64,000 bases of DNA. Source: an uncultured Dokdonia sp. (lineage in GTDB: Bacteria; Bacteroidota; Bacteroidia; Flavobacteriales; Flavobacteriaceae). The position numbers were made by a program, and so were the translations under genes. Positions 14,407-27,020 of the stretch are shown here, piece after piece. The stretch covers positions 186,001-250,000 of the forward strand of contig CANNDF010000001.1 of assembly GCA_947503305.1 (NCBI GenBank), written 5' to 3'. A model generated the notes under the pieces. That model ran no database searches, was not told the DNA's origin, and was given only the letters and a program-made list of their open reading frames with translations. Numbering within the stretch: the first letter of the stretch is position 1; every line of letters begins with the position of its first letter.

Positions 14407-17376
14407 TTACAATATAACCTTGCTTAACGTAACCTTTTTATTTTCTCTTAAAAGCCTAATCATTTTTACTTCTTTTGTTTCCTGAGGGGATCCATAATCT
14501 TTATAAAAAGTATACTTTATGTATAATGGGATTAAATAGTCATTTGCCACATCAGAATATTCTAAATTAATTAACCACTCTCCTTTGTGAGCATCATCCA
14601 AAATAAATTCTTCTAAAGAAAGTCCTTCTCTAGTACTATTTGCAAACTTGTCAGATTTTGATTTATCCCATTTGAAAAAAAACTTCTCTGGACTTACAAA
14701 CTGTATTTTAAACTTGGCTTGTGGTTGTGACCAATTAAGAACCCATCTGGCATCTATAAGACTGTTTTCTACAGAAAAATTTTTGAGAACATCACTAGAT
14801 AGAATCTCAGTTCCATGTAATAGTATTAATCTACTCAATTCATTATTTAACAAAGGTTTTATTGTACTGAAATCTATATTTTGTATCCCCTGAACAAGCA
14901 TTCTCTTATATAAATCTATCGCATCCTTATACTTACCGTTTACCTCATAAATCATTGCTAAATCACGATGAGATTGTGCTTCCAAAGGTCGTATTTTGGC
15001 AATTTCTTCGTATAAATATTCTGCTTCTTTATACTTTTTAAACTGCTCAAAATATCCTGCTACAATACGTAGTATCTTAGGATTGTCTGGAGATAGGTAT
15101 ACTACATTTGTTAATATCTCATAAGCAATATCATAATCCCATTTTGATATAAATTGAGCTACTTCTAAATAATAATTTATAGTAACTATATGCGGACTAT
15201 CATTTTTATATATTTTATAAGCTTCCTCTAAAGTCTGTGCTTGAAGGAAAGGTTCTATAAAAGATGTTTTAGATAGCAAAGCATCATACACATCAAGATT
15301 CTCATTATAATAATTTTTAATGGCTTTATTATTGCCCTGAGAAGCTGTTTCATCCATTCCTAGTTGGAACTTTTTTGTACGTATTACAATCAACCCTCCA
15401 CTGGCTTCGGCTCCAAATCGATTTTTTGCAGTTAAGGGGTTTACTATGGATATACTAGATATTTCCTGAGGGTTTATATAAGGTAATGTTCTCCGCTGGT
15501 CATAAATAAGACCATCTATCATTATAGAAGGAGTCCCAGAAATAATCCCAGGAGATTTATAAGATCTAGGAAATTCATAAATACCCCCTCCAGAAGTCTT
15601 TCTATAACGAACCGATGTATTAGCCAGCAAGACATTTTCTAACGTAGTATGCGTAGGATTAATTTGATTACTAGTAACTTCTTCTATAGCATAACGTACC
15701 TTTTTTTGCTCTCCTCGTTTTTTCTGTCTCTCTTTGCCAGAAATTACTACTTCATCTAGAAAATCTCCTTCAGGCATTAAATTTATAGAGAATGGTCGGT
15801 CGCTGTTTTTAATCGTTACACGCTGAGATACAGCTCCAATATGAGAAAATAGCAGTTCTTCGCCTATTGAAGCCTGAATACTGAAATCCCCATTAGAGTT
15901 TGTAATTTCTTCTTTATAAGTACCTAGAATTCTTATGTTCACCCCTTGAAAAGGAATACTGTCTATTGTTACATTTCCTTTTATCCAGTAGTTTTTGTCT
16001 TCCTTTTGTTCATATACTTGAAAATCTTCAATGTCATAGGTCATAAATGACAATGCCTTATCAAGAGATACTTTAGTAGGGTTTATATAATGCCCATCTG
16101 TATATAATGAGAGTGATTGAAGTCGTTCTTCATTTCCGTAAGTCAGAGAATTTATAGTAAAAACGGGAGCATCATATTTTACTTTTAATTCTCCTAGAAA
16201 AGAAGTTGCATCAGAAAATAACAATATACGATCTGGAGTAAAATCTGAGGTATATCCCAAATGGTCATAATTTGCAATTCCATCATAGAATACATTTTCC
16301 AATGATCTTTTAAAATCTAGATGATCAGTGTTTTTTTTACAATCAAAATAAAGTACATCTTGTAGCCTACTATTAAAAACAACAAGCTCTATTTTTGAGG
16401 TATCTAAAGATTGTAAATAGGTAGATAGTAACTCATATTCTTTATCAAAATCTCGTTTCTTCATGGACCTCGATGCATCCCAAAATATGGTAATATTCTT
16501 AGGGGGTACTCTTTTTTTATTCAACGCATAATGCTCACTTTTTAATTGTCCTATTTTTACAGAAAATGCAATTCCATCGCCTTTATATCTCTTCCATTTA
16601 TCCTGACTAATAGCTCTAGTAAAAGAGGATACTTTTGTATATGCACCCGCAATAGCAATTTCTAGTTTATCTCCATATACTTTTATAAGTTCTATGCTTA
16701 CAACTACATCATCGTTTACAATAATTCCATATGGACTAAGGTCTATAGATACATCCTTCTCTCCTTTGTGAACAGTATGATAGATTTGAGAATTTACCAA
16801 ATTATTTACAGGGTATCTTTTCTTATAATCATAAACATTTACCCGAAGAAGCACACTATCTGTTTCATTTTCTATAAGTTTAAAATTAAGTTTGAGAAGT
16901 TTTGTTTGTTCTTTTTTTATACGGATTCGAGTAGCAATTTCTCCACCTAATCCTTGCTTATCTTTCCAATATCCAAAATGTTCTTTTGTATATTTTGAAT
17001 ACCCTATAGTCCTTTCTTCTTCAATTAATTTTTCTACTACTACTTCATCTAGACCTATAGGTTCTGGAATCAATTTGATAATAGAAAAGTCTTTAGGAGC
17101 ATCTCTTAGCTCTTTTATAGTATACGTTTTTGTCTTATATCCTACTATTGAGATTTGCAAAACATCATTTGGCAATAATCGTTTTTGTGTCTGAAATTCA
17201 AAATACCCTTGTTCATCAGTTACTGTACCGATCCCTTTTTTTACAATTCCAACATTGACATATGGAATAGAAGTTTTCTTATGAGCATCTATAACTTGAG
17301 CTCTAAAAACAGATTGCCCCTTTACTTGCATAGAAGTAACGAAAAGGGCAATCCATAAAATAGTGAGATATTTCAT
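14407..17376 (-). CDS. Array protein D: CarboxypepD_reg / VWA / TonB-plug / TPR / DUF2135
   Basis: A 989-residue exported protein (signal peptide 1-20, MKYLTILWIALFVTSMQVKG). In order: CarboxypepD_reg (about 22-105); a beta-rich region shared only with paralogue B (about 135-280, GLGGEIATRIRIKKE); a VWA-like domain (about 294-445) with DASRS at 300-304 and FSDA with D389, but Asn at 369 where the MIDAS Thr would be; a second CarboxypepD_reg (about 465-535); a TonB plug (about 540-668, ending SGGLIVIRTKKF); TPR-like helices (about 690-850); and a DUF2135 domain (about 875-985). The protein ends there, with no 22-strand barrel, so it cannot be a TonB-dependent transporter on its own. It is the last gene of the array. 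It lacks the ALVxGNDY linker present in A-C. Function unknown. Confidence 0.85.
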   Translation of the reverse strand: MKYLTILWIALFVTSMQVKGQSVFRAQVIDAHKKTSIPYVNVGIVKKGIGTVTDEQGYFEFQTQKRLLPNDVLQISIVGYKTKTYTIKELRDAPKDFSIIKLIPEPIGLDEVVVEKLIEEERTIGYSKYTKEHFGYWKDKQGLGGEIATRIRIKKEQTKLLKLNFKLIENETDSVLLRVNVYDYKKRYPVNNLVNSQIYHTVHKGEKDVSIDLSPYGIIVNDDVVVSIELIKVYGDKLEIAIAGAYTKVSSFTRAISQDKWKRYKGDGIAFSVKIGQLKSEHYALNKKRVPPKNITIFWDASRSMKKRDFDKEYELLSTYLQSLDTSKIELVVFNSRLQDVLYFDCKKNTDHLDFKRSLENVFYDGIANYDHLGYTSDFTPDRILLFSDATSFLGELKVKYDAPVFTINSLTYGNEERLQSLSLYTDGHYINPTKVSLDKALSFMTYDIEDFQVYEQKEDKNYWIKGNVTIDSIPFQGVNIRILGTYKEEITNSNGDFSIQASIGEELLFSHIGAVSQRVTIKNSDRPFSINLMPEGDFLDEVVISGKERQKKRGEQKKVRYAIEEVTSNQINPTHTTLENVLLANTSVRYRKTSGGGIYEFPRSYKSPGIISGTPSIMIDGLIYDQRRTLPYINPQEISSISIVNPLTAKNRFGAEASGGLIVIRTKKFQLGMDETASQGNNKAIKNYYNENLDVYDALLSKTSFIEPFLQAQTLEEAYKIYKNDSPHIVTINYYLEVAQFISKWDYDIAYEILTNVVYLSPDNPKILRIVAGYFEQFKKYKEAEYLYEEIAKIRPLEAQSHRDLAMIYEVNGKYKDAIDLYKRMLVQGIQNIDFSTIKPLLNNELSRLILLHGTEILSSDVLKNFSVENSLIDARWVLNWSQPQAKFKIQFVSPEKFFFKWDKSKSDKFANSTREGLSLEEFILDDAHKGEWLINLEYSDVANDYLIPLYIKYTFYKDYGSPQETKEVKMIRLLRENKKVTLSKVIL

Positions 17377-17388
17377 TTGAATACGTAT

Positions 17389-17402
17389 GCTTTCGCGAAA
17401 GC
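17389..17402. repeat. Palindrome copy 5 (GCTTTCGCGAAAGC)
   Basis: Perfect copy in the 36-base gap between array genes C and D. It could form a hairpin in a C-D transcript. Confidence 0.95.
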
Positions 17403-17412
17403 GAAAAATAGA

Positions 17413-20400
17413 TTACAATACTACTTTACCAAGAGTTACCTTATCTGATTGCTTAAAGAGTTTTACTACTTTGATCTCTTTGGTTTCCTGTGGTGTACCA
17501 TAATTTCTATAGACAGTATACTTTAAGAATGGAGGTAATACATAATCCCCTTCATCCCCTAAATATTGAATATTAATCAACCATTCTCCAGAAGGTGCAT
17601 CATCTATAATAAATTCCTCAGACTGGAATCCTTGAGACTGCTCTCTTTCTAGTCGTTCTCTATTGTCTTCTAGAGTGTGTGTCCATTTAAAAAACTTCTT
17701 ATCTGGATTTACAAACTGAAACTCAAAGGGTACCGATCTATCTGACCACTCAATCACCATACGAATGTCTACATCAAAATCTATGCGTAACCATTCATTA
17801 GGCAGACGTTCATAATCTATCTTATCTTTATACAAAGACACAAGGTGACTAAGTTCACTCCTTAAAACATTTTCTAACCCTTTAAAATCAACACCTTTAA
17901 TCTGCTCTCCAAGCATATTATAATACAATTCCAAGGCTCTATTGTATTGTCCTGTTTCTTGATAAATCAATGCTAAATCTCTATACGACTGGGCTTCTTG
18001 TGGAGCAATCTTTGCGACACGCTCATAAATTAATTCTGCATTCTTATAATCTCCTACAGCACTATAAATATATCCTAGTGTACGAAGGGCCTTCGTATTA
18101 TTTCTGGAAATATAGGCAAGATCTGCACGTACCTGGTCTGCCTTTCGTCTATCTATCCCTTCAAAATATTGAGCAACATCTACATAAAATTCAAGTGGAG
18201 ATTCCTGAGTTCTAGCTATTTTTTGATAGTGCTCAAATTGATCTTCTATACTTGGTATTTCGCGTAAGCGTAATATATATTCTGGTAGTGCAGCGTCAAG
18301 TGATCGGGTAGAGGCTCCATCATACTCATTCCCACTTACTAATGCCGATTTTTGGGCTGCAGCGGCTTTGTCTTTAAAGCTAGATTCTTTGGTTTTAATT
18401 AAAAATGCTCCTCCTGCTGCAAGAGATCCATATCGAGAGGTTGCCACAACAGATTTTAATACTGAAATACTTTCTATTTGTTGCACATCAAGAAAATTAG
18501 GAACTTCTTGATATGGTGTCCCATTTACAATCCAAATAGGGGGAATCTCATTTGTAATAGATTGATTTCCTCCTCGTATTTTATAAACCACCTCACTTCC
18601 ACTATATAGCCCTCCAGCAACTGTAACTCCTGCTACCTTTCCTGTGATAAGTTGTTGTAAGTTAGTCGCTCCTGCACTAAAAGAATCACTCGTAAGTTCG
18701 TCTACAGCATATCCTAGTTTATCACTATTTTCTTTACCATATCCCGTCTCTATGGTATTATCTACTCGACGGTTTCCTTGTACAATCACTTCATCTAGAT
18801 TATCGTTTTTTGGAGTGAGTTCTACACTTCCTATATCTTGAGATGTTACCAATAACTCTTTGGCAAACATTCCTACTTTACTCACCACCAGCACATCATC
18901 TAGAGCTGCTTGTATCTCAAATTCTCCTTTGTTATTTGTATAGACTTCATCAAAACTCCCTTTTCTGGTAATGGTGGCATCACTCAAGACTCCTTGAGGG
19001 CCTTTTACAATACCTCGAACTTGTAGTCTATCATTAGATTGTACAGGCGTATCTATAGATTGTACTTCCTCGTTATAATCGTTTCCTTCTACTAATGCCG
19101 AAGGAGCCTCTGTTGTTACTCCTTGGGTATTTAATAAAGCTCTCGTAGTAATCTCAACAACACCATTTTTACCTAGTGTACCGTAACGAGTGGTTCCAAT
19201 TATAGATTTTATAATTGATATGCTTTCTACTCTATCAGGAGAAATAAATGGTCGAGGTATATCTGAAGGAATTATTAACCCATCAATAACTATTGTCATT
19301 GCATTAGACCTTCCTACAACAGTTAATCCAAAATATGGATCATCAATAGCAGATATCCCTGCAAACTTGCCATTTATAACATTTGCTAAATCTATTTGAT
19401 GATCCCCTATATCTTCTTTTTTTATTACTTTAACATCATAGCCTACTTTATCTCTATTCTCTTCTCCCCAAGCTGTTCTTATGGTTTCATCTTTACCATC
19501 CCTATTCTCTCCTTTTAAAACAACTTCATCTAGTACATCATTTTTAGGTAAAAGATCAATATCATAGGTTGTAGCTTCATCTATCATAAATCCTTTAGGA
19601 TACATTCCAAGATATTGTACAATCAGTTCATCTCCTTTTTGGGCATAAATTTCAAAGGAGCCATCGCTTTTAGATGTATATTCTTCAAAAGTTCCTTTTT
19701 TAGAAATAGTAGCTCCTTGAATAGGTTTTCCTACGCTTGTTATCTTACCTGTGATTTTTATTTGGGATTTGGTTTTTAAAACACCCTCAGATATAGACTG
19801 AACCTCTTCAGTATAATCATTGCCTTTAACTAGAAGAGAGGTTTTCCTTTTGGCTTTAGACAACGGCATTGTTTTAGTTGTAATAATCACAAACAAGTCT
19901 GATATAGGTAGTCCATATCGACTCGTCAAAAATGGAGAGTCTTTTACGATAATAGATTCTATTTCATTATCTAGTATATATAGAGGTATAGGTTCTCCTC
20001 GAAATAACTGACGCCCATTAATAATATATCCAGGTTCTCTACCTTGAATTGTCACAATTGTTCCTCTAAATGGATCTTGCGTAATAACGACACCTTTAAA
20101 CTTCTCCTGTAAAACATATTCTAATGTTTTGGCATCGGGAGTAATATCATCTGCCGTTATATAGAAATCTCCTAAGGCTGTCGTTCCTCCAGGAATACTA
20201 GGATGATTGATATTACCTTTAATAATTTTATTTCCTACTATTACCTCTTCTATTTTCTTTGTAAGTACTACTTCATCTAGGACATCATTTTCTGGTAATA
20301 ATTCAATAACGAGATCTTTATTATTATCTATTCGAATATCTTTAGGAAACATCCCTAAGTATCGTAATTGTAAAATATCTCCCTCACTTGCAGGCACTTC

Positions 20401-21351
20401 AAACCTTCCACTAGCATCTGTAAGATACTCTGTAAAGTCTCCTTTCTTTATAATAGAGACTTCCTGTAAAGGTTTTCCAAGACTAGTGATTTTCCCTTTT
20501 ATAACTGGTCCGTTGCTTTGACTTGTAACAGATACTCGTTCATCTTTGGAAATTGTGTTTGTATTTGCTACCGGTATATTTCCTTTCTTTATTATTTGAA
20601 AGTTTCCTGATGTATAACGTGCTAATTTCTGGAGGTATCCTGTATCTATTTCTCTTCCTGTGGCAATGGCATATATAGGAATATCTTGTGATACGTTAAG
20701 TGTGCCAAAATTTGATCCCCCTTTTGAGGATAAAATAACTGCATCTGTATCTTTTATTTCTAATACTCCATAATTAGAAGGTCCATTATAGACTAGAGAG
20801 GTTACGCTTTCGCGAAAGCGGGATAGATCTCCATTACGGACTTCAAAAGTTTCTTTCTTTTGTATCTTATGATTAAAGGCTACTAAAGTAATGTCAAGGC
20901 GTTTATATGGCGCAGTAAATTGCTGTATATAAGCAATTTCTGATTCAACGTCTCTTCCTTGCATTCCCTCAGAAATATCCCAAAATATAGAAAGCTTTTT
21001 TATCTTTTTATCTCTTTTTGTCTCTTTGGAAGAACTTAATTCTATGGTGCTGGATGTATTAAACAGCGATCGTATTTCATTAACTCCCAGTTGTATAGAT
21101 TCATAACCGCTAGCTCCTACTAGTAGTGTACTTTCTGAGCGTAATACTTCATGATATTTCTTATAAACAAAGCGCCCGCTGGTATCTGTAAGCTCTCCAA
21201 CTCCTTGGTCGCTTATTCCTACTTTAGCATTTGATATAGGCTGTCTTGTATCGGCATCTATTACTTTTCCTTTAAATATGGTTTGTGCATGTATTCCTAC
21301 TGTAAAACTTAATAGAAATACGACTAGTGCGTATTTGTAATTATTTTTCAT
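17413..21351 (-). CDS. Array protein C: VWA-like and three CarboxypepD_reg/TonB-plug units, TPR, DUF2135
   Basis: A 1312-residue exported protein (signal peptide 1-22). CarboxypepD_reg 24-105, closely like A (KVGISDQGVGELTD); VWA-like domain about 118-270 with a degenerate MIDAS (DISEG at 125-129, and SSKGG at 208-212 where A has FSDGE). Then three consecutive units of CarboxypepD_reg plus TonB plug (about 283-505, 530-750, 776-1000), each starting with a GKIT/GIVK strand, passing through LDEVV, and closed by a LVxGNDY/GNEY linker (506, 753, 1004). TPRs occupy about 1035-1180 and DUF2135 about 1195-1310. There is no barrel. It starts 13 bases after gene B ends, so the two are cotranscribed. 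Function unknown; a surface or periplasmic scaffold is an inference only. Confidence 0.85.
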   Translation of the reverse strand: MKNNYKYALVVFLLSFTVGIHAQTIFKGKVIDADTRQPISNAKVGISDQGVGELTDTSGRFVYKKYHEVLRSESTLLVGASGYESIQLGVNEIRSLFNTSSTIELSSSKETKRDKKIKKLSIFWDISEGMQGRDVESEIAYIQQFTAPYKRLDITLVAFNHKIQKKETFEVRNGDLSRFRESVTSLVYNGPSNYGVLEIKDTDAVILSSKGGSNFGTLNVSQDIPIYAIATGREIDTGYLQKLARYTSGNFQIIKKGNIPVANTNTISKDERVSVTSQSNGPVIKGKITSLGKPLQEVSIIKKGDFTEYLTDASGRFEVPASEGDILQLRYLGMFPKDIRIDNNKDLVIELLPENDVLDEVVLTKKIEEVIVGNKIIKGNINHPSIPGGTTALGDFYITADDITPDAKTLEYVLQEKFKGVVITQDPFRGTIVTIQGREPGYIINGRQLFRGEPIPLYILDNEIESIIVKDSPFLTSRYGLPISDLFVIITTKTMPLSKAKRKTSLLVKGNDYTEEVQSISEGVLKTKSQIKITGKITSVGKPIQGATISKKGTFEEYTSKSDGSFEIYAQKGDELIVQYLGMYPKGFMIDEATTYDIDLLPKNDVLDEVVLKGENRDGKDETIRTAWGEENRDKVGYDVKVIKKEDIGDHQIDLANVINGKFAGISAIDDPYFGLTVVGRSNAMTIVIDGLIIPSDIPRPFISPDRVESISIIKSIIGTTRYGTLGKNGVVEITTRALLNTQGVTTEAPSALVEGNDYNEEVQSIDTPVQSNDRLQVRGIVKGPQGVLSDATITRKGSFDEVYTNNKGEFEIQAALDDVLVVSKVGMFAKELLVTSQDIGSVELTPKNDNLDEVIVQGNRRVDNTIETGYGKENSDKLGYAVDELTSDSFSAGATNLQQLITGKVAGVTVAGGLYSGSEVVYKIRGGNQSITNEIPPIWIVNGTPYQEVPNFLDVQQIESISVLKSVVATSRYGSLAAGGAFLIKTKESSFKDKAAAAQKSALVSGNEYDGASTRSLDAALPEYILRLREIPSIEDQFEHYQKIARTQESPLEFYVDVAQYFEGIDRRKADQVRADLAYISRNNTKALRTLGYIYSAVGDYKNAELIYERVAKIAPQEAQSYRDLALIYQETGQYNRALELYYNMLGEQIKGVDFKGLENVLRSELSHLVSLYKDKIDYERLPNEWLRIDFDVDIRMVIEWSDRSVPFEFQFVNPDKKFFKWTHTLEDNRERLEREQSQGFQSEEFIIDDAPSGEWLINIQYLGDEGDYVLPPFLKYTVYRNYGTPQETKEIKVVKLFKQSDKVTLGKVVL
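18343..20505 (-). repeat. Three diverged in-gene repeats (CarboxypepD_reg + plug unit)
   Basis: Within gene C, three protein-level repeats of about 220-250 residues each lie at about 19834-20505, 19096-19764 and 18343-19026. All share the order regulatory domain, LDEVV, plug, then the LVxGN(D/E)Y linker. They are diverged, so this is an old duplication rather than recent DNA repeats. Confidence 0.8.
20806..20819. repeat. Palindrome copy 6 (GCTTTCGCGAAAGC)
   Basis: Perfect copy inside array gene C, read on the minus strand as F-R-E-S (residues 179-182, in the VWA-like domain). Confidence 0.95.
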
Positions 21352-21364
21352 AGTGTCCTTAAAA

Positions 21365-24300
21365 TTAGTTAAGTGTTAGTGTTCCTAAGGTAGTTTTATC
21401 TTGCTGTTTGAAGAGTTTAATAATCTTAACCTCTTTGGTTTCTTGAGGGGTTGCATAGTTAAGGTAGACGGTATACTTTAAATATGCTGGAGGTTGTATT
21501 CCTTCTTCCCCAAGGTATTGAATATTGATAAGCCATTCTCCCGGAGGTGCTTCATCTAGACCAAACTCTTCAAGGCTATACCCCTTTCTAAGTTCGTCCT
21601 CAAGGCGCCCTCGGTCTTCTAAGGCTGTATGTGACCACTCAAAATACTTTGCCTGTGGGTTTACAAATTGAATCTCAAAATCTGCAAGTGTATCTGTCCA
21701 TTCAAAAACAAGGCGACGATCTTTTTTAAAACCTACATCTAGTAAACTATTTGGTAACTCTTCGAAGTTTACTTTTGATTTATGAAAAGCAAGTAATCGC
21801 AAAAGCTCAAATTCAATTGTTTTTTTGAGAGGTGTAAAATCAAGACCTTCTGTATTATTTGCTAGCATTTGTTTATAAAGATTAAATGCTTTTGTATACA
21901 TTCCATTATCTTGATATATCAATGCTAAGTCCCTATAGGATTGAATACGATCTGGAGCGATATCCATAATCTTCTTATAGATTTTTGTTGCAGTATGTAG
22001 GTCTCCTAAAGATTCCATATGATAGGCCATGAGTTTTAAGACCTCAACATTATCGGGTGCAATTACCAATAAATTAGAAAGGATACGAGATGCTACCTTT
22101 CTATCCCATTTCTTAAAATAACTAGCTACGTCTGAGTAAAATTCAATCGGGTTTTGAATTGGGCTTGAACGGTATTGAGAATAGATATTTAGAGCTTCTT
22201 GAAGAGACTGAGATTTTTCTAATTGTATTCCGTAAGGAGTCGTGTCAATCTTATCTTCAAGGAAAGTAACAGTCTCGGTATAATCATTTCCTAGTACCAA
22301 CGCAGATGGTTTTTTAACTTCAGATGATTCAGTATCAAAATCTCCTGTTTTTGTCTTTACAATAATCGCGCCACCTTGTCCGACAACTCCATAAAGAGTA
22401 AGTGCAGCTTGAGATGTCACTACTTGTACTGATGACACCGTTTGTGGATTTACATATGGGATTTGAGTTTGTCCTTGAACATAGGTAATATCATCTATAA
22501 TAACAATAGGTGGTGGTGCAACACCAGCTAGTCTTATAATTCGATATTCTTCATTACGGGTAAATGGATTTCTACCTACACTGACACCTCCTATCCTACT
22601 CAATATATCTCCAAGCGATAGATAGCTAGGTTTTATATCTTCTTCTCTAATAATATTAGTTTTAAAAGCAACTGCATCAAAATTTTTCTTTCCTGTAGCA
22701 GTTTCTACAAACTGTTCATCTTCTTTTGCTTTTCCTGTTAGAATAACTTCGTCTAACCAGTCACCATTTACTTCCATAGTAATGGACACTGTTGTATTAC
22801 TGATTTGTATTTCTTTTGTATTCATTCCTGGAAAACGTATAGATAAACGATCTCCTATTTGTGCAGCTATTTCAAAATCTCCCGAAGCATCCGATTTTAC
22901 TTCTCTAAATGTCCCTTTTAATCGTACTGTAGCACCTTCTATCCCTCCTATTTCTGAGGTGATCTTACCCTTAATTTTTGAAAGTGCTTGAACCTCTTCC
23001 AATGAAGTTTCATTTGAAGTATCTTTTAGAAGAAATTCTAGTGCTTTTCTGGGTGTATAGTTGTTTAAGTTTATAAAAGCACCATCCGTATATAAGGCTG
23101 CCTCTTCTAGTACCTCTACATTAGCTTCGGCGCTATTTGCAATAGCAAAAACCGGACTAGAAAATACAGGTTCTAATTTTGATAATGGTGCGTTTCCATT
23201 GGTAATTAATAGATTTGCCTGTGTTTTCTGAGAAGGAAATTCTTTTATAAAACTATAGTCTGCAATGCCTTCATAGTTTGTATCTTCTAAATACTTAATA
23301 ATGTCTGTAGTTTTTCCTCTTTTTACAGTAAAACTCTTTGTTTCTACATATTCAAATGCAAATTTTTGAACCGTTACATCTACATTTTTTATGGTCTTTA
23401 AATAACGATCTATAAGATCAATATCTGCTTTAAAATTACGAGTTGCTGCTGTAGCAGAGGCATCCCAAAAAATAGTTACAGATTCTGGTAAAATTCTATC
23501 TATAGTCTCTTTATCTCCACTTTTTATTGGATACGACACATCCATAGTAAATCCCATGGCTTCCGATTTATGTGGTTTCCAATAATCTAAGCTTATAGAG
23601 CGTGTAAACGAAGGGTTTTTATTTGCACTTCCTGCCACAGCAAACCCCAATTTATTTCCGTAAATCTCTATAAGTTCTATGCTCGCAATGATATCTGTAT
23701 CTGTATAAATATCATACTGAGATAAAGGAATACGTTCCAACCCTCTTTTCCGAGAAATTGTGTGATAGATTACTGTATTTAAAATATTTTTACTGGGAAT
23801 CCTGTATATAGGATCTATATCGTAAATATTAACTCGAACTCGTATACTATCAGAAAGATTCTCTAAAACAGTGAGATTTAAATTTAAAAGCTTAGTATTC
23901 TCTTTCTTTATTTTAATTTTTGTAGCAATTTCACCCCCGAGTCCTAATTCATTTTTCCAATACCCAAATTTTTCTGGATTGATTTTTCCATTACCAATTG
24001 TCGTATTTTTAATTTTGGCACTCCCTAAAAAAACTTCTCCAAGACTATATAATTCTGGGGTCAGTTTGATTTTATTTTTTGTAGATAAGACCGTATTTAT
24101 AGAAGCTATTGACGTCTTTATTGTCTTATAACCAATAATTGAAAACTGAATTGCATCAGAAGTTTTAATAACATCTGTGCTGTATTTTAATACAAAAAAC
24201 CCATTTGAATCTGTAACTGAACCAATACCCTTACCTATAAAACCAACATTTACAAAAGCAATAGGTTCCTCCGTGTCTTGATGTATTACTTGCCCTTTAA

Positions 24301-24400
24301 GGATTGTATACTCTCCTTGAGTACTAATTTGAGACTTGGAATCTGTTATAAAAAAGAGAGAAAATATAAAGAAAAAATAAATCGTAATGTTCATTCTCAT
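21365..24400 (-). CDS. Array protein B: CarboxypepD_reg / VWA-like / TonB-plug / TPR / DUF2135
   Basis: A 1011-residue exported protein. ATG at 24400 is chosen because MRMNITIYFFFIFSLFFITD is a complete signal peptide; an in-frame ATG at 24430 would add ten residues. Domains, numbered from the chosen start: CarboxypepD_reg about 33-115; a beta-rich region shared with D about 145-290 (GLGGEIATKIKIKKE); VWA-like about 306-460 with a weak MIDAS (DASAT; the later Asp is Asn in LITNGNA); second CarboxypepD_reg about 475-545; plug about 550-685; ALVLGNDYTE linker at about 700; TPRs about 735-885; DUF2135 about 893-1005. No barrel follows. It is 169 bases downstream of gene A and 13 bases upstream of gene C. 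Function unknown. Confidence 0.85.
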   Translation of the reverse strand: MRMNITIYFFFIFSLFFITDSKSQISTQGEYTILKGQVIHQDTEEPIAFVNVGFIGKGIGSVTDSNGFFVLKYSTDVIKTSDAIQFSIIGYKTIKTSIASINTVLSTKNKIKLTPELYSLGEVFLGSAKIKNTTIGNGKINPEKFGYWKNELGLGGEIATKIKIKKENTKLLNLNLTVLENLSDSIRVRVNIYDIDPIYRIPSKNILNTVIYHTISRKRGLERIPLSQYDIYTDTDIIASIELIEIYGNKLGFAVAGSANKNPSFTRSISLDYWKPHKSEAMGFTMDVSYPIKSGDKETIDRILPESVTIFWDASATAATRNFKADIDLIDRYLKTIKNVDVTVQKFAFEYVETKSFTVKRGKTTDIIKYLEDTNYEGIADYSFIKEFPSQKTQANLLITNGNAPLSKLEPVFSSPVFAIANSAEANVEVLEEAALYTDGAFINLNNYTPRKALEFLLKDTSNETSLEEVQALSKIKGKITSEIGGIEGATVRLKGTFREVKSDASGDFEIAAQIGDRLSIRFPGMNTKEIQISNTTVSITMEVNGDWLDEVILTGKAKEDEQFVETATGKKNFDAVAFKTNIIREEDIKPSYLSLGDILSRIGGVSVGRNPFTRNEEYRIIRLAGVAPPPIVIIDDITYVQGQTQIPYVNPQTVSSVQVVTSQAALTLYGVVGQGGAIIVKTKTGDFDTESSEVKKPSALVLGNDYTETVTFLEDKIDTTPYGIQLEKSQSLQEALNIYSQYRSSPIQNPIEFYSDVASYFKKWDRKVASRILSNLLVIAPDNVEVLKLMAYHMESLGDLHTATKIYKKIMDIAPDRIQSYRDLALIYQDNGMYTKAFNLYKQMLANNTEGLDFTPLKKTIEFELLRLLAFHKSKVNFEELPNSLLDVGFKKDRRLVFEWTDTLADFEIQFVNPQAKYFEWSHTALEDRGRLEDELRKGYSLEEFGLDEAPPGEWLINIQYLGEEGIQPPAYLKYTVYLNYATPQETKEVKIIKLFKQQDKTTLGTLTLN

Positions 24401-24569
24401 AAGTGATGCTTTTTTAAAAATGTATATCAAATGAATGATTTACATTGTATGAATCACTTAAATATAAACCATAATGTATGAGATACAGTATATTCCGATA
24501 AATACTTACCTAATCACAGCCTCATTGTATACACTTGTATATGTGGTATTTAAAAATTATAAATCTTAT

Positions 24570-27020
24570 CTAAAGTAAGAATTCGTCGAGTTGGGCTTTC
24601 CCAATTTCAGATGTAAGTTTGATCACTTTTACATCTTTTCGCTCTTCAGAAGTACCATAATCTCTATAGATTGTATACTTAAGATATGGGGGGATTTTTG
24701 TATACGTATTCTCTCCTAAATATTCAATATTTACAATCCATAAACCATGAGGAGCTTCATCTATAACAAACTCTTCTGTTTGAAATCCAGACTTAAGCTC
24801 TTCTTGAAGACGCTCTTTATTATCAAAAAGAGTATGGTTCCATTTAAAATATTTCTTTTGAGGGTTTACAAACTGAAATTCAAAAGGCACCTCTCTATCA
24901 GACCATTCCAGAACCATTCTCAAGTCTAACCGATAATCATTAATTAACCACTCTTCTGGTAACCTTTCATAGTCTATCTGATCTCTATGTAGAGATACCA
25001 AATGCAATAATTCATGCCCCAAAGGTCTTTCCAAGCCAGAAAAATCGACACCAATAATTTGTTCTGCAAGCATATTGATATATAACTCAAGCGATTTATC
25101 ATAAAATCCTGCTTCTTCATATGCTTTTGCCAGATCCCTATAAGATTGCGCATCTTGAGGAGCTAGTGAAGCAATACGTTCGTATAATTTAAGCGCATTT
25201 GTATAGTCTCGTGCACTTTCATAGAGATATGCTACAATACGTAAAACCTTTGCATTTTTTTGAGCTACTTCGACAAGTCTTGATCGTATTTGGGCCGCTT
25301 TATCTTTATCCAGAGGTTGAAAATAAATAGCCATATCTGCAAAAAAAGAAGCATTTGTAGTATTTGCTTTAGATAAGTTTTGATACATTTCATATTGTTT
25401 ATCAATACTTTCTAATTTTTGTATCTGCTTTATGTAGTCTGGTTTTAATACTTCAAGATTTAAGCTTTCAACCTGATCTGTATAGTCATTTCCTTTAACA
25501 AGTGCTCGATCTACAATTTCTCCTCTATCATCAAATTCTACAAAGCTTTTTGTCCTTACAATAAAAGCCCCTCCTGATGCCACAGAACCATATCGTATAG
25601 CAGCAATAGAGGATTTTATAATAGATATACTTTCTATATTTTGGGGATTTACAAAATTTGGCACTTCTGTATAAAGAGAACCATCTAAAACCCATACAGC
25701 TGGTTGCGAATTATTACCTCCTCGTATTGTAAACTGAGCATCATCTCCAAAACCAGATACCTGTACTCCCGCAAACCGTCCTCTAATAATATCACTCAAA
25801 TACGTTGCATTAGGGCGTATATCTGCACTTGTAATAGTACTCACTGCAAAACCTATTGCGTCTTTATCCTTGTCTCCATATCCTACATCTGCTTTATCAG
25901 ATGCTTCTCTTGCTTTTCTACCTTCAAGTACTACCTCATCTAGTAATTCATCAAGGGGCTTCATATCAATAGTAAGTGGCCCATCACCTTCAACAAGCAT
26001 TTCTCTTGGATACATTCCTAGGTATCTTACCTGCAATACATCACCCTCTTCTGCAGGAACTACAAAACTTCCATCTGCTCTAGACAAAAACTCTTCCAGG
26101 TCCCCTTTAATTGTAATACTGGCGCCTTGAATAGGGCCTGTCGTTGTGGCAACAACCCCTTTAAATTGTTTTGAAATAGCAATTGTTTTATCTTTAAATG
26201 GAATCCCCGATTTTATTTGCTCTATACTCTCTGCAACCGAACTATTAGATAAGTTTATATAACTCCCACTTGTATAACTTGCCATAGATCTAAGATAGTT
26301 GTGGTTTGCTCTAGATATACTACTTACAGCATATACAGGTGTGCTTCTATTTGCTTTCCATTCGCCTAAAACAGCCTCTCCGTCAGAAAATAAAAGTGCG
26401 ACATCTGCATTTCCCGTAGTCAAAATGTCATAGGATGTAGCCCCTCCATATTCTATATCTTCTACTGCCTTTTTTAATGCACTTATATCTTTATCTATGA
26501 CAAATGACTTACGTGATAACATAGATTCATTAAATACAATAAAAGAGATATTTACCTCATCAAGCTCAGCAAAATAAGATGTAATAAAGGACCATTCTTT
26601 TTTAAAATTGCGTCGTTTTGATGATAAAGAAGCATCCCAAAAAACTGCAATATTCTTTTGATCTGTAAATGTTTTTGTATTTAATTGCGTTTCACTTTTT
26701 TGTAAATAAAATGTGCTCGTTTTATTAAAAAGATTCCGTATTTGATCCCCTACAAGTTCTATAGATTCATATCCTGGAGCAGTAATTTTAAGGACAGATG
26801 CTTTTCCAATAGTCTGATGATATTTTCTATAATTAAAAGCGCCCTTTGAATTTGTAATAATTCCAATACCTTGATCAGAAATACCTACTTTCACATTATC
26901 AATAGGGGCTTTTGAAGCTTCATCTAAAACCTTTCCTCTAAATACTGTCTGGGCAAAACCAGCCCCACAAAAGTGTAGTACAATAAGGTTTATAAAAACT
27001 ACATAATATATTCTTTTCAT
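24570..27020 (-). CDS. Array protein A: CarboxypepD_reg / VWA / TonB-plug / TPR / DUF2135
   Basis: An 816-residue exported protein, the first of the array in transcription order. Signal peptide 1-23; CarboxypepD_reg 25-106; VWA 122-268 with a complete-looking MIDAS (D129, S131, S133 in DASLS; T195; D213 in FSDGE); second CarboxypepD_reg about 286-352; TonB plug about 360-492 (DEVVLEG ... IRGGNN ... SGGAFIVRTK); ALVKGNDYTDQVESL linker at 506-520; TPRs about 540-680 (APQDAQSYRDLAKAYEEAG); DUF2135 about 697-812 (ERLQEELKSGFQTEEFVIDE). There is no outer-membrane barrel. Of the four, only A keeps every MIDAS position. Homologues may be annotated as TonB-dependent receptor plug or carboxypeptidase-like regulatory domain proteins; the role is unknown. 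Confidence 0.87.
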   Translation of the reverse strand: MKRIYYVVFINLIVLHFCGAGFAQTVFRGKVLDEASKAPIDNVKVGISDQGIGIITNSKGAFNYRKYHQTIGKASVLKITAPGYESIELVGDQIRNLFNKTSTFYLQKSETQLNTKTFTDQKNIAVFWDASLSSKRRNFKKEWSFITSYFAELDEVNISFIVFNESMLSRKSFVIDKDISALKKAVEDIEYGGATSYDILTTGNADVALLFSDGEAVLGEWKANRSTPVYAVSSISRANHNYLRSMASYTSGSYINLSNSSVAESIEQIKSGIPFKDKTIAISKQFKGVVATTTGPIQGASITIKGDLEEFLSRADGSFVVPAEEGDVLQVRYLGMYPREMLVEGDGPLTIDMKPLDELLDEVVLEGRKAREASDKADVGYGDKDKDAIGFAVSTITSADIRPNATYLSDIIRGRFAGVQVSGFGDDAQFTIRGGNNSQPAVWVLDGSLYTEVPNFVNPQNIESISIIKSSIAAIRYGSVASGGAFIVRTKSFVEFDDRGEIVDRALVKGNDYTDQVESLNLEVLKPDYIKQIQKLESIDKQYEMYQNLSKANTTNASFFADMAIYFQPLDKDKAAQIRSRLVEVAQKNAKVLRIVAYLYESARDYTNALKLYERIASLAPQDAQSYRDLAKAYEEAGFYDKSLELYINMLAEQIIGVDFSGLERPLGHELLHLVSLHRDQIDYERLPEEWLINDYRLDLRMVLEWSDREVPFEFQFVNPQKKYFKWNHTLFDNKERLQEELKSGFQTEEFVIDEAPHGLWIVNIEYLGENTYTKIPPYLKYTIYRDYGTSEERKDVKVIKLTSEIGKAQLDEFLL

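Follow-up and report, generated by a model that had tools for sequence, protein, structure and literature searches.

The stretch of DNA analyzed here (the window, 64,000 nucleotides of contig CANNDF010000001.1 from an uncultured Dokdonia sp., to which the coordinates below refer unless another locus is named; residue numbers are those of the protein named) contains four genes, A to D, which occupy positions 14407 to 27020 of the minus strand and are transcribed in the order D-C-B-A. Judging by sequence comparison and structure models, their products combine a core of VWA, TPR-like, and DUF2135-like domains, shared with proteins resembling the inter-alpha-inhibitor heavy chains (ITIH), with one or more front-end cassettes of the SusC/RagA type and no barrel. 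The cassette consists of an N-terminal extension (NTE, a CarbopepD domain), a TonB-box-like linker, and a plug domain. Gene D (24570-27020) encodes 816 amino acids (aa), gene C (21365-24430) encodes 1021 aa counted from a TTG codon, gene B (17413-21351) encodes 1312 aa, and gene A (14407-17376) encodes 989 aa. Met11 (position 24400) is a likelier start for gene C than the TTG because it is nearly invariant in relatives. The intergenic gaps measure 139 bases between D and C, 13 between C and B, and 36 between B and A. All four N termini carry a hydrophobic, signal-like segment as judged by eye; no lipobox was seen by eye in any of the four, and Cys18 of D stands in a context unlike a lipobox.

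In protein D, the signal-like segment is followed by a first CarbopepD_reg_2 domain recognized by Pfam (residues 28-114; 26679-26939, with this and all of the following features on the minus strand) and by a VWA fold with the DASLS and SDG residues of the metal ion-dependent adhesion site (MIDAS), placed by the model, Foldseek, and the family alignment (residues 122-275; 26196-26657). The cassette comes next, with a second CarbopepD domain corresponding to the SusC NTE (residues 284-358; 25947-26171; profile and model), the TonB-box-like motif LDEVVL in a stretch predicted to be disordered (residues 360-365; 25926-25943), and a PF07715 plug supported by Pfam, the model, and Foldseek (residues 388-485; 25566-25859). 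TPR-like helices (residues 528-690; 24951-25439), which fall below the Pfam cutoff and were placed by the model and Foldseek, lead to a C-terminal DUF2135-like beta domain assigned from the model and relatives (residues 695-816; 24573-24938). In protein C, CarbopepD and VWA are separated by an all-beta domain (residues 140-301; 23528-24013), a stretch that is also aligned in A, and Pfam detects a plug at 22370-22666. Protein B has three tandem cassettes downstream of VWA, the second at residues 528-771 (19039-19770) and the third from residue 773 to about residue 1000 (18352-19035; Pfam plug at 18406-18708), and copy number in the family ranges from one to four per protein. The plug of A (residues 558-661; 15394-15705) is diverged.

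Several lines of evidence identify the cassette as SusC type. CarbopepD_reg_2 passes the Pfam cutoff in all four proteins, and the plug model PF07715 passes it in B (E = 4.2e-12), D (E = 3.9e-11), and C (E = 2.1e-5). The SusC model TIGR04056 stays below its cutoff in A to D, and in all four its best-matching stretch covers only the part of the model with the NTE and plug, stopping at model position 205-207 of 981. A profile of 86 family members matches SusC/RagA chains near their N termini, the best being 8aa4 (E = 1.3e-35), in which profile positions 197-422 pair with residues 30-240 of 999, that is, from the NTE to the plug only. AlphaFold (AF2) models were built for D from 86 sequences (predicted local distance difference test [pLDDT], 85.6; predicted template modeling score [pTM], 0.76) and for C from 50 sequences (pLDDT, 84.6; pTM, 0.66). 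In D, the plug blocks (residues 391-490) reach a pLDDT of 72-89; the linker falls under 50 in both models (residues 360-373 of D and 559-571 of C) and is predicted to be disordered. Foldseek aligned the D model with SusC chain 8aa4 of a dextran utilisome over 121 columns (root mean square deviation [rmsd], 2.7; 26% identity) and with the isolated SusC NTE 9hfj over 75 columns (rmsd, 1.5), in addition to VWA domains and TPR proteins. Foldseek prints no aligned ranges, and the 8aa4 match is taken to be the plug because the family profile matches residues 30-240 of that chain. The segment in D is thus a SusC-type plug, as modeled.

The remaining domains are less readily recognized, and their assignments in A to D rest on models, structure matches, and relatives, being mostly below Pfam cutoffs. 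The sole TPR model at cutoff was TPR_17 in B (single-protein Pfam scan), and helical hairpins that match TPR structures are seen in the models of both D and C. VWA was subthreshold in A and D and unlisted for B and C, and both models matched VWA structures in Foldseek. Among the 86 family members, MIDAS residues Asp129 and Ser131 are present in all 86, Ser133 in 67, and Asp213 in 69. DUF2135 was not listed in the hmmscan of A to D; it reached 12.2 bits in B and 18 bits in one of the solitary paralogues, under its cutoff of 22 bits, and it exceeded the cutoff in the homologous C termini of all eight longer relatives scanned. The VIT domain (PF08487) had no match in A to D or anywhere else in the genome, and no type IX secretion system (T9SS) sorting model appeared among the Pfam matches to E = 10 or the NCBIfam matches to E = 1 for the four proteins, a search that had no positive control.

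The accepted role of a plug domain is that of a gate within a barrel. In A to D, the chain continues for about 330 residues beyond the plug, and the models of D and C fill this part with helices and one beta domain, so that a 22-strand barrel is missing from the proteins themselves. In this genome PF07715 has 28 matches, those in the window lying in B, C, and D, and the barrel model PF00593 has 19, none of them within the window. Ten neighboring proteins scanned with Pfam also contained no barrel: a radical SAM protein, a Gfo/Idh/MocA oxidoreductase, an enoyl-CoA hydratase, a histidine kinase, a sortilin/BNR protein, a MatE protein, an HD-domain protein, an acyltransferase, a lycopene cyclase, and a TerB-DnaJ protein. 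The search in the window thus comprised the genome scan with PF00593 and these 10 neighbors rather than every open reading frame (ORF) singly. As a control, PF00593 was found in 16 of 21 other plug frames of the same genome with at least 470 residues after the plug, so it is not exhaustive by itself. The five that it missed (L126, L132, L136, L137, and L142) have a plug, mostly a CarbopepD domain, and no Pfam barrel in the portion examined; they may be unrecognized receptors or odd plug proteins. The post-plug parts of the 21 frames were also used as queries against 76 loci with family genes from named genomes (flanks of up to 8 kb per side, less on short contigs), and a receptor-like ORF was found in two, both on the opposite strand (768 and 841 aa). 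Elsewhere in the genome, two SusC receptors exceed the signature cutoff, and two frames, at C5:182821 and C2:469709, match PF00593 without PF07715; neither is near a family gene.

A split receptor with an adjacent barrel was rejected on these counts (no barrel among the 10 neighbors, no PF00593 match in the window, and receptor-like ORFs at 2 of 76 loci). The first-pass annotation of this DNA had described four exported proteins, each with CarbopepD, VWA, plug, TPR, and DUF2135 domains and free of a barrel. The four ORFs lie where it had placed them and carry these domains, the weak ones (DUF2135 as a DUF2135-like C terminus) by models and relatives; the end of the TIGR04056 match, the two models, and the profile match to 8aa4 bear out a SusC-type plug without a barrel, and the segment in D keeps a plug fold in structure prediction. 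The separately encoded barrel beside the array that it had named as a possible counterexplanation was not found.

Two other frames of the genome contain partial SusC-like sequences. The one at C3:188400 (L153) is a SusC-like frame of 648 aa, compared with 1062 and 1098 aa for the SusC genes, with a plug start that appears shortened by eye. The other (L143, 1054-1740; C1:873123) encodes a 228-aa protein whose C terminus resembles the second half of a SusC-type plug (TIGR04057, 34.7 bits, below the cutoff of 46.2) and lies downstream of a gene that looks by eye like one for a sigma factor.

A to D are, by sequence and models, tandem paralogues within a family of the Flavobacteriaceae that is kin to VIT-VWA-TPR-DUF2135 proteins and carries the NTE-linker-plug cassette as an optional part. 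Most of the 76 loci, which came from the best 80 of 188 matches in the named-genome scan, are titled Flavobacteriaceae or one of its genera, including Dokdonia, Aquimarina, Kordia, Leeuwenhoekiella, Maribacter, Muriicola, and others, and some are titled only Bacteroidetes, Bacteroidia, or Cytophagaceae. With one genome per genus of the Flavobacteriaceae, 34 of 120 genera (this one included) had a match at E ≤ 1e-60, as did 4 of 296 genomes in a class-wide survey; nine and three candidates, respectively, were scored per genome, and both counts are floors. Within Dokdonia, 17 of 18 genomes matched at 1e-40, a threshold at which ordinary SusC genes match too, and 16 of 18 is the more cautious figure because the match in genome G009 is a SusC-length frame that aligns over the cassette only. 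At least two family ORFs (≥200 bits) lie within the fetched stretch at 30 of the 76 loci, and the genome studied here has two solitary paralogues, at C1:374840 (726 aa) and C5:359803 (735 aa), that the first-pass annotation had not reported. Recent gene conversion among A to D was considered and rejected, since the copies in five direct-repeat families of at least 40 bases are 62-74% alike.

Architectures within the family vary from proteins lacking VWA, to those with an N-terminal VWA or with CarbopepD then VWA, to longer proteins with VIT then VWA. Eight longer relatives, from 20 stretches fetched, all have VIT and DUF2135 above the Pfam cutoffs; five of the eight also have CarbopepD and/or Plug, and three have neither. 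When the TPR-DUF2135 parts of 156 rows were placed in a quick maximum-likelihood tree (midpoint rooted, with several long branches), 19 rows clustered with a Shimodaira-Hasegawa-like approximate likelihood ratio test (SH-aLRT) value of 100. These comprise 16 rows labeled VIT type and three cut-short rows (L024, L027, and L028) whose complete genes, read elsewhere, are of the VIT type, and plug-bearing and plug-free rows are intermixed among them; L178, labeled plug free, retains parts of the cassette. Both models find their top PDB match in inter-alpha-inhibitor heavy chain 1 (ITIH1; E = 1.3e-5 for D and, over 546 columns, E = 1.6e-8 for C), with TM-scores of 0.14-0.22 and an rmsd of >20, as expected for flexible multidomain chains. 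The kinship to VIT proteins, unnoticed in the earlier annotation, rests on the VWA and TPR-DUF2135 parts. The cassette may have been inserted into an ITIH-like ancestor, with VIT lost later; as the tree is effectively unrooted, this order of events is an inference.

Conservation across the family is among the highest at the start of VWA, in the latter half of the plug, in one TPR hairpin, and in strands of the DUF2135-like domain. In the seven Dokdonia pairs printed, the ratio of nonsynonymous to synonymous substitution rates (dN/dS) was about 0.3 or less for the domains of D, with several dS values saturated and the TonB-box-like element represented by only 15 codons; the plug had values of 0.03-0.26. 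Pseudogenes are unlikely given the low dN/dS of D, the only gene in which selection was examined, and the presence of arrays in other Dokdonia genomes. The dS of the D cassette (second CarbopepD and plug; 25566-26171) was lower than that of the TPR and DUF2135 parts in all seven pairs, which could reflect exchange of cassettes between lineages. A Bacteroidota promoter pattern matched nowhere in the window, where 3.3 chance matches would be expected, and was uninformative.

Neighboring genes were compared by clustering 827 ORFs from the 76 loci; the 35 largest clusters were read by eye, and names were given by eye except for M24 and HD, which were scanned with Pfam. No obvious envelope partner was seen in these 35 clusters. 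Solitary copies adjoin genes that look like those of the menaquinone pathway and, at 26 loci, a gene for an exported M24 peptidase with a signal-like start (for example, L097, 4642-5988), which lies on the same strand within 300 bases at 22 of the 26. Arrays adjoin an HD-domain gene at 14 loci. Two loci also encode small proteins of 203 aa (L097, 3897-4508) and 208 aa (L108, 3597-4223) with two plug segments each (Plug E = 1.6e-12 and 4.1e-17, respectively); at E = 0.01 nothing else in Pfam matches them. YfbK-like VWA proteins occur in loci with family genes, and three were scanned (L108, 4234-6339; L083, 3066-5252; and L106, 3622-5730); all three have an N-terminal CarbopepD domain above cutoff and two have Plug. 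On this evidence they are a second lineage in which a barrel-free plug is united with VWA.

The linker has a counterpart in a SusC protein that has been studied experimentally. In Bt1763, the motif VDEVVV after the NTE is a tested TonB box that is needed for function and is unstructured by nuclear magnetic resonance (PMC7782687), and LDEVVL of D, which follows CarbopepD, is at the same place. Leu360 at its start is kept in all 86 family members. LDEVV is not specific to TonB because similar motifs come after CarbopepD in proteins without a plug match as well; this reading covered 30 CarbopepD loci out of 55 matches in the genome. The first-pass annotation had counted LDEVV among its plug signatures, and by itself the motif proved to be no sign of plug function. 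As proof of TonB binding it was likewise rejected, since it occurs in plug-free proteins and has decayed in some relatives.

Overall, we lean toward A to D being exported and most likely soluble periplasmic scaffolds that use the cassette as a docking module. A scaffold role as such appears fairly probable. VWA would bind a ligand through a metal at the MIDAS site, and such metal-dependent binding is plausible because most members retain the MIDAS residues. The TPR-DUF2135 part may bind a common partner, and the cassette would be an interchangeable module to which a periplasmic partner docks, with the plug serving as a binding domain and not as a gate. A role other than that of an import-pore gate is likely because the segment in D is plug-like and no separate barrel was found beside the array. 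To this extent the first-pass annotation's idea of a SusC-plug system used for something other than import stands; its picture of the four proteins as a dedicated, multicomponent system does not. A dedicated four-part machine was rejected, given that the proteins are paralogues of variable copy number with two solitary copies in the same genome and no obvious envelope partner in the 35 largest neighbor clusters. The best single candidate for a partner is the C-terminal domain of TonB, which would bind through the LDEVV linker, a suggestion that we regard as doubtful. The genome has four matches to this domain. A bolder version, in which the family comprises nontransporter clients of TonB, periplasmic VWA-TPR scaffolds whose one to four cassettes are gripped and pulled by TonB or sequester it, appears distinctly unlikely; the plug would then be a force-sensitive unit, and the output would be plug unfolding or TonB titration rather than nutrient import.

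A number of observations weigh against the docking-module reading. The plug of A falls below the PF07715 cutoff (19.4 bits against 23.9; E = 1.5e-3), and the 50 Foldseek hits listed for the C model, which include a SusC NTE as well as VWA domains, contain no SusC plug chain. Asp213 of the MIDAS is substituted in 17 of 86 members. A loose TonB box pattern is failed by 20 of the 86, with an Aquimarina group having LDAAIVKSK or similar, and LDEVV-like motifs trail CarbopepD in proteins of the same genome with no plug match (for example, L150, L154, L158, and L162). The dN/dS of the plug exceeds that of DUF2135 in seven of seven pairs and that of TPR in six of seven, and none of the 35 largest neighbor clusters from the 76 loci supplies a gene partner that points to a process.

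Several of these points suit an alternative in which the cassette is a neutral insertion, a folded spacer within an ITIH-like adhesin or scaffold whose plug and box take no part in binding. The weaker constraint on the plug, its divergence in A, the variation from one to four copies, and the presence of the cassette in some VIT-type relatives and its absence from others would all follow. The plug nevertheless remains under constraint at the dN/dS values given above, the disordered linker begins with an invariant leucine, and a like cassette recurs on a second VWA type in the three YfbK-like proteins (CarbopepD in three and Plug in two), and a passive spacer is unlikely in our judgment. It has also to be considered that the free plug acts in trans by docking into a barrel encoded elsewhere, whether to complete a split receptor or to regulate a SusC-type channel by blocking or tuning it. 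SusC-type residues are kept in the family, including Arg433 (74 of 86) and Lys469 (64 of 86), which we presume may correspond to the basic, barrel-contacting residues of the lock region in FhuA and FepA, and both the two SusC receptors and the two plug-free PF00593 frames could provide barrels. These two frames are not near a family gene, however, and the one at C5:182821 has its own CarbopepD domain and linker, like an ordinary receptor. The window contains no PF00593 match, although that model fails to match 5 of 21 receptor-length plug frames of this genome, and no barrel among the 10 neighbors, and the only two receptor-like ORFs at the 76 loci are of full receptor length and on the opposite strand, all of which makes docking in trans quite improbable.

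Surface proteins often undergo tandem expansion, and the array, together with the top fold match to ITIH1 and a VWA domain with MIDAS residues, might suggest a surface or secreted adhesin or a protease-inhibitor-like protein, as in human ITIH, instead of a periplasmic scaffold. No T9SS sorting model was matched and no lipobox was seen, with the scope and limits already given for those searches, and the NTE and plug of SusC face the periplasm (PMC7782687); a surface location is on these grounds improbable. Soluble periplasmic scaffolds with a docking cassette remain the best explanation overall.

The array proteins appear to be a new combination of known domains, with a function that we infer from sequence and models. 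No paper on this architecture was found, judging from titles and the starts of abstracts, with some lists covering only the top 20 of 306 or 1,046 entries, and a search on the term DUF2135 returned no papers. A SusC gate cassette without a pore, in up to four copies per protein, gives a natural setting in which to ask what a plug and TonB box can do by themselves, and the family offers a test of whether TonB has clients besides transporters. It also provides a warning for annotation, in that a gene labeled "TonB-dependent receptor plug domain" need not encode a receptor.

Among known systems, a periplasmic link between VWA proteins and the Ton/Tol energy system has been proposed for vWA force transducers coupled to TolQ/ExbB-like motors, with a TPR gene nearby (PMC12204202). 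Those transducers lack a plug and have their transmembrane helix at the motor, whereas A to D have a signal peptide that appears to be cleavable and, at the most, a motif resembling a TonB box. YfbK-like periplasmic VWA proteins (PF12450-VWA-PF12034) from other Flavobacteriaceae loci likewise unite CarbopepD, a barrel-free plug, and VWA, but they belong to another VWA family with a different C terminus, and the genome studied here has no YfbK_C match. ITIH heavy-chain-like proteins (VIT PF08487-VWA-DUF2135 PF09906), of which ITIH1 is the best PDB match, share the core of VWA, TPR-like, and DUF2135-like domains; A to D differ from them by lacking VIT and by having an added plug cassette and an N-terminal CarbopepD domain. 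SusC/RagA transporters (TIGR04056; PF13715 and PF07715 with a barrel) share with A to D the succession of NTE, TonB-box-like linker, and plug, with significant sequence similarity from the NTE to the plug and, for D, similarity of fold. In contrast to these transporters, the array proteins have no barrel and place VWA before the cassette and the TPR-like and DUF2135-like domains after the plug.

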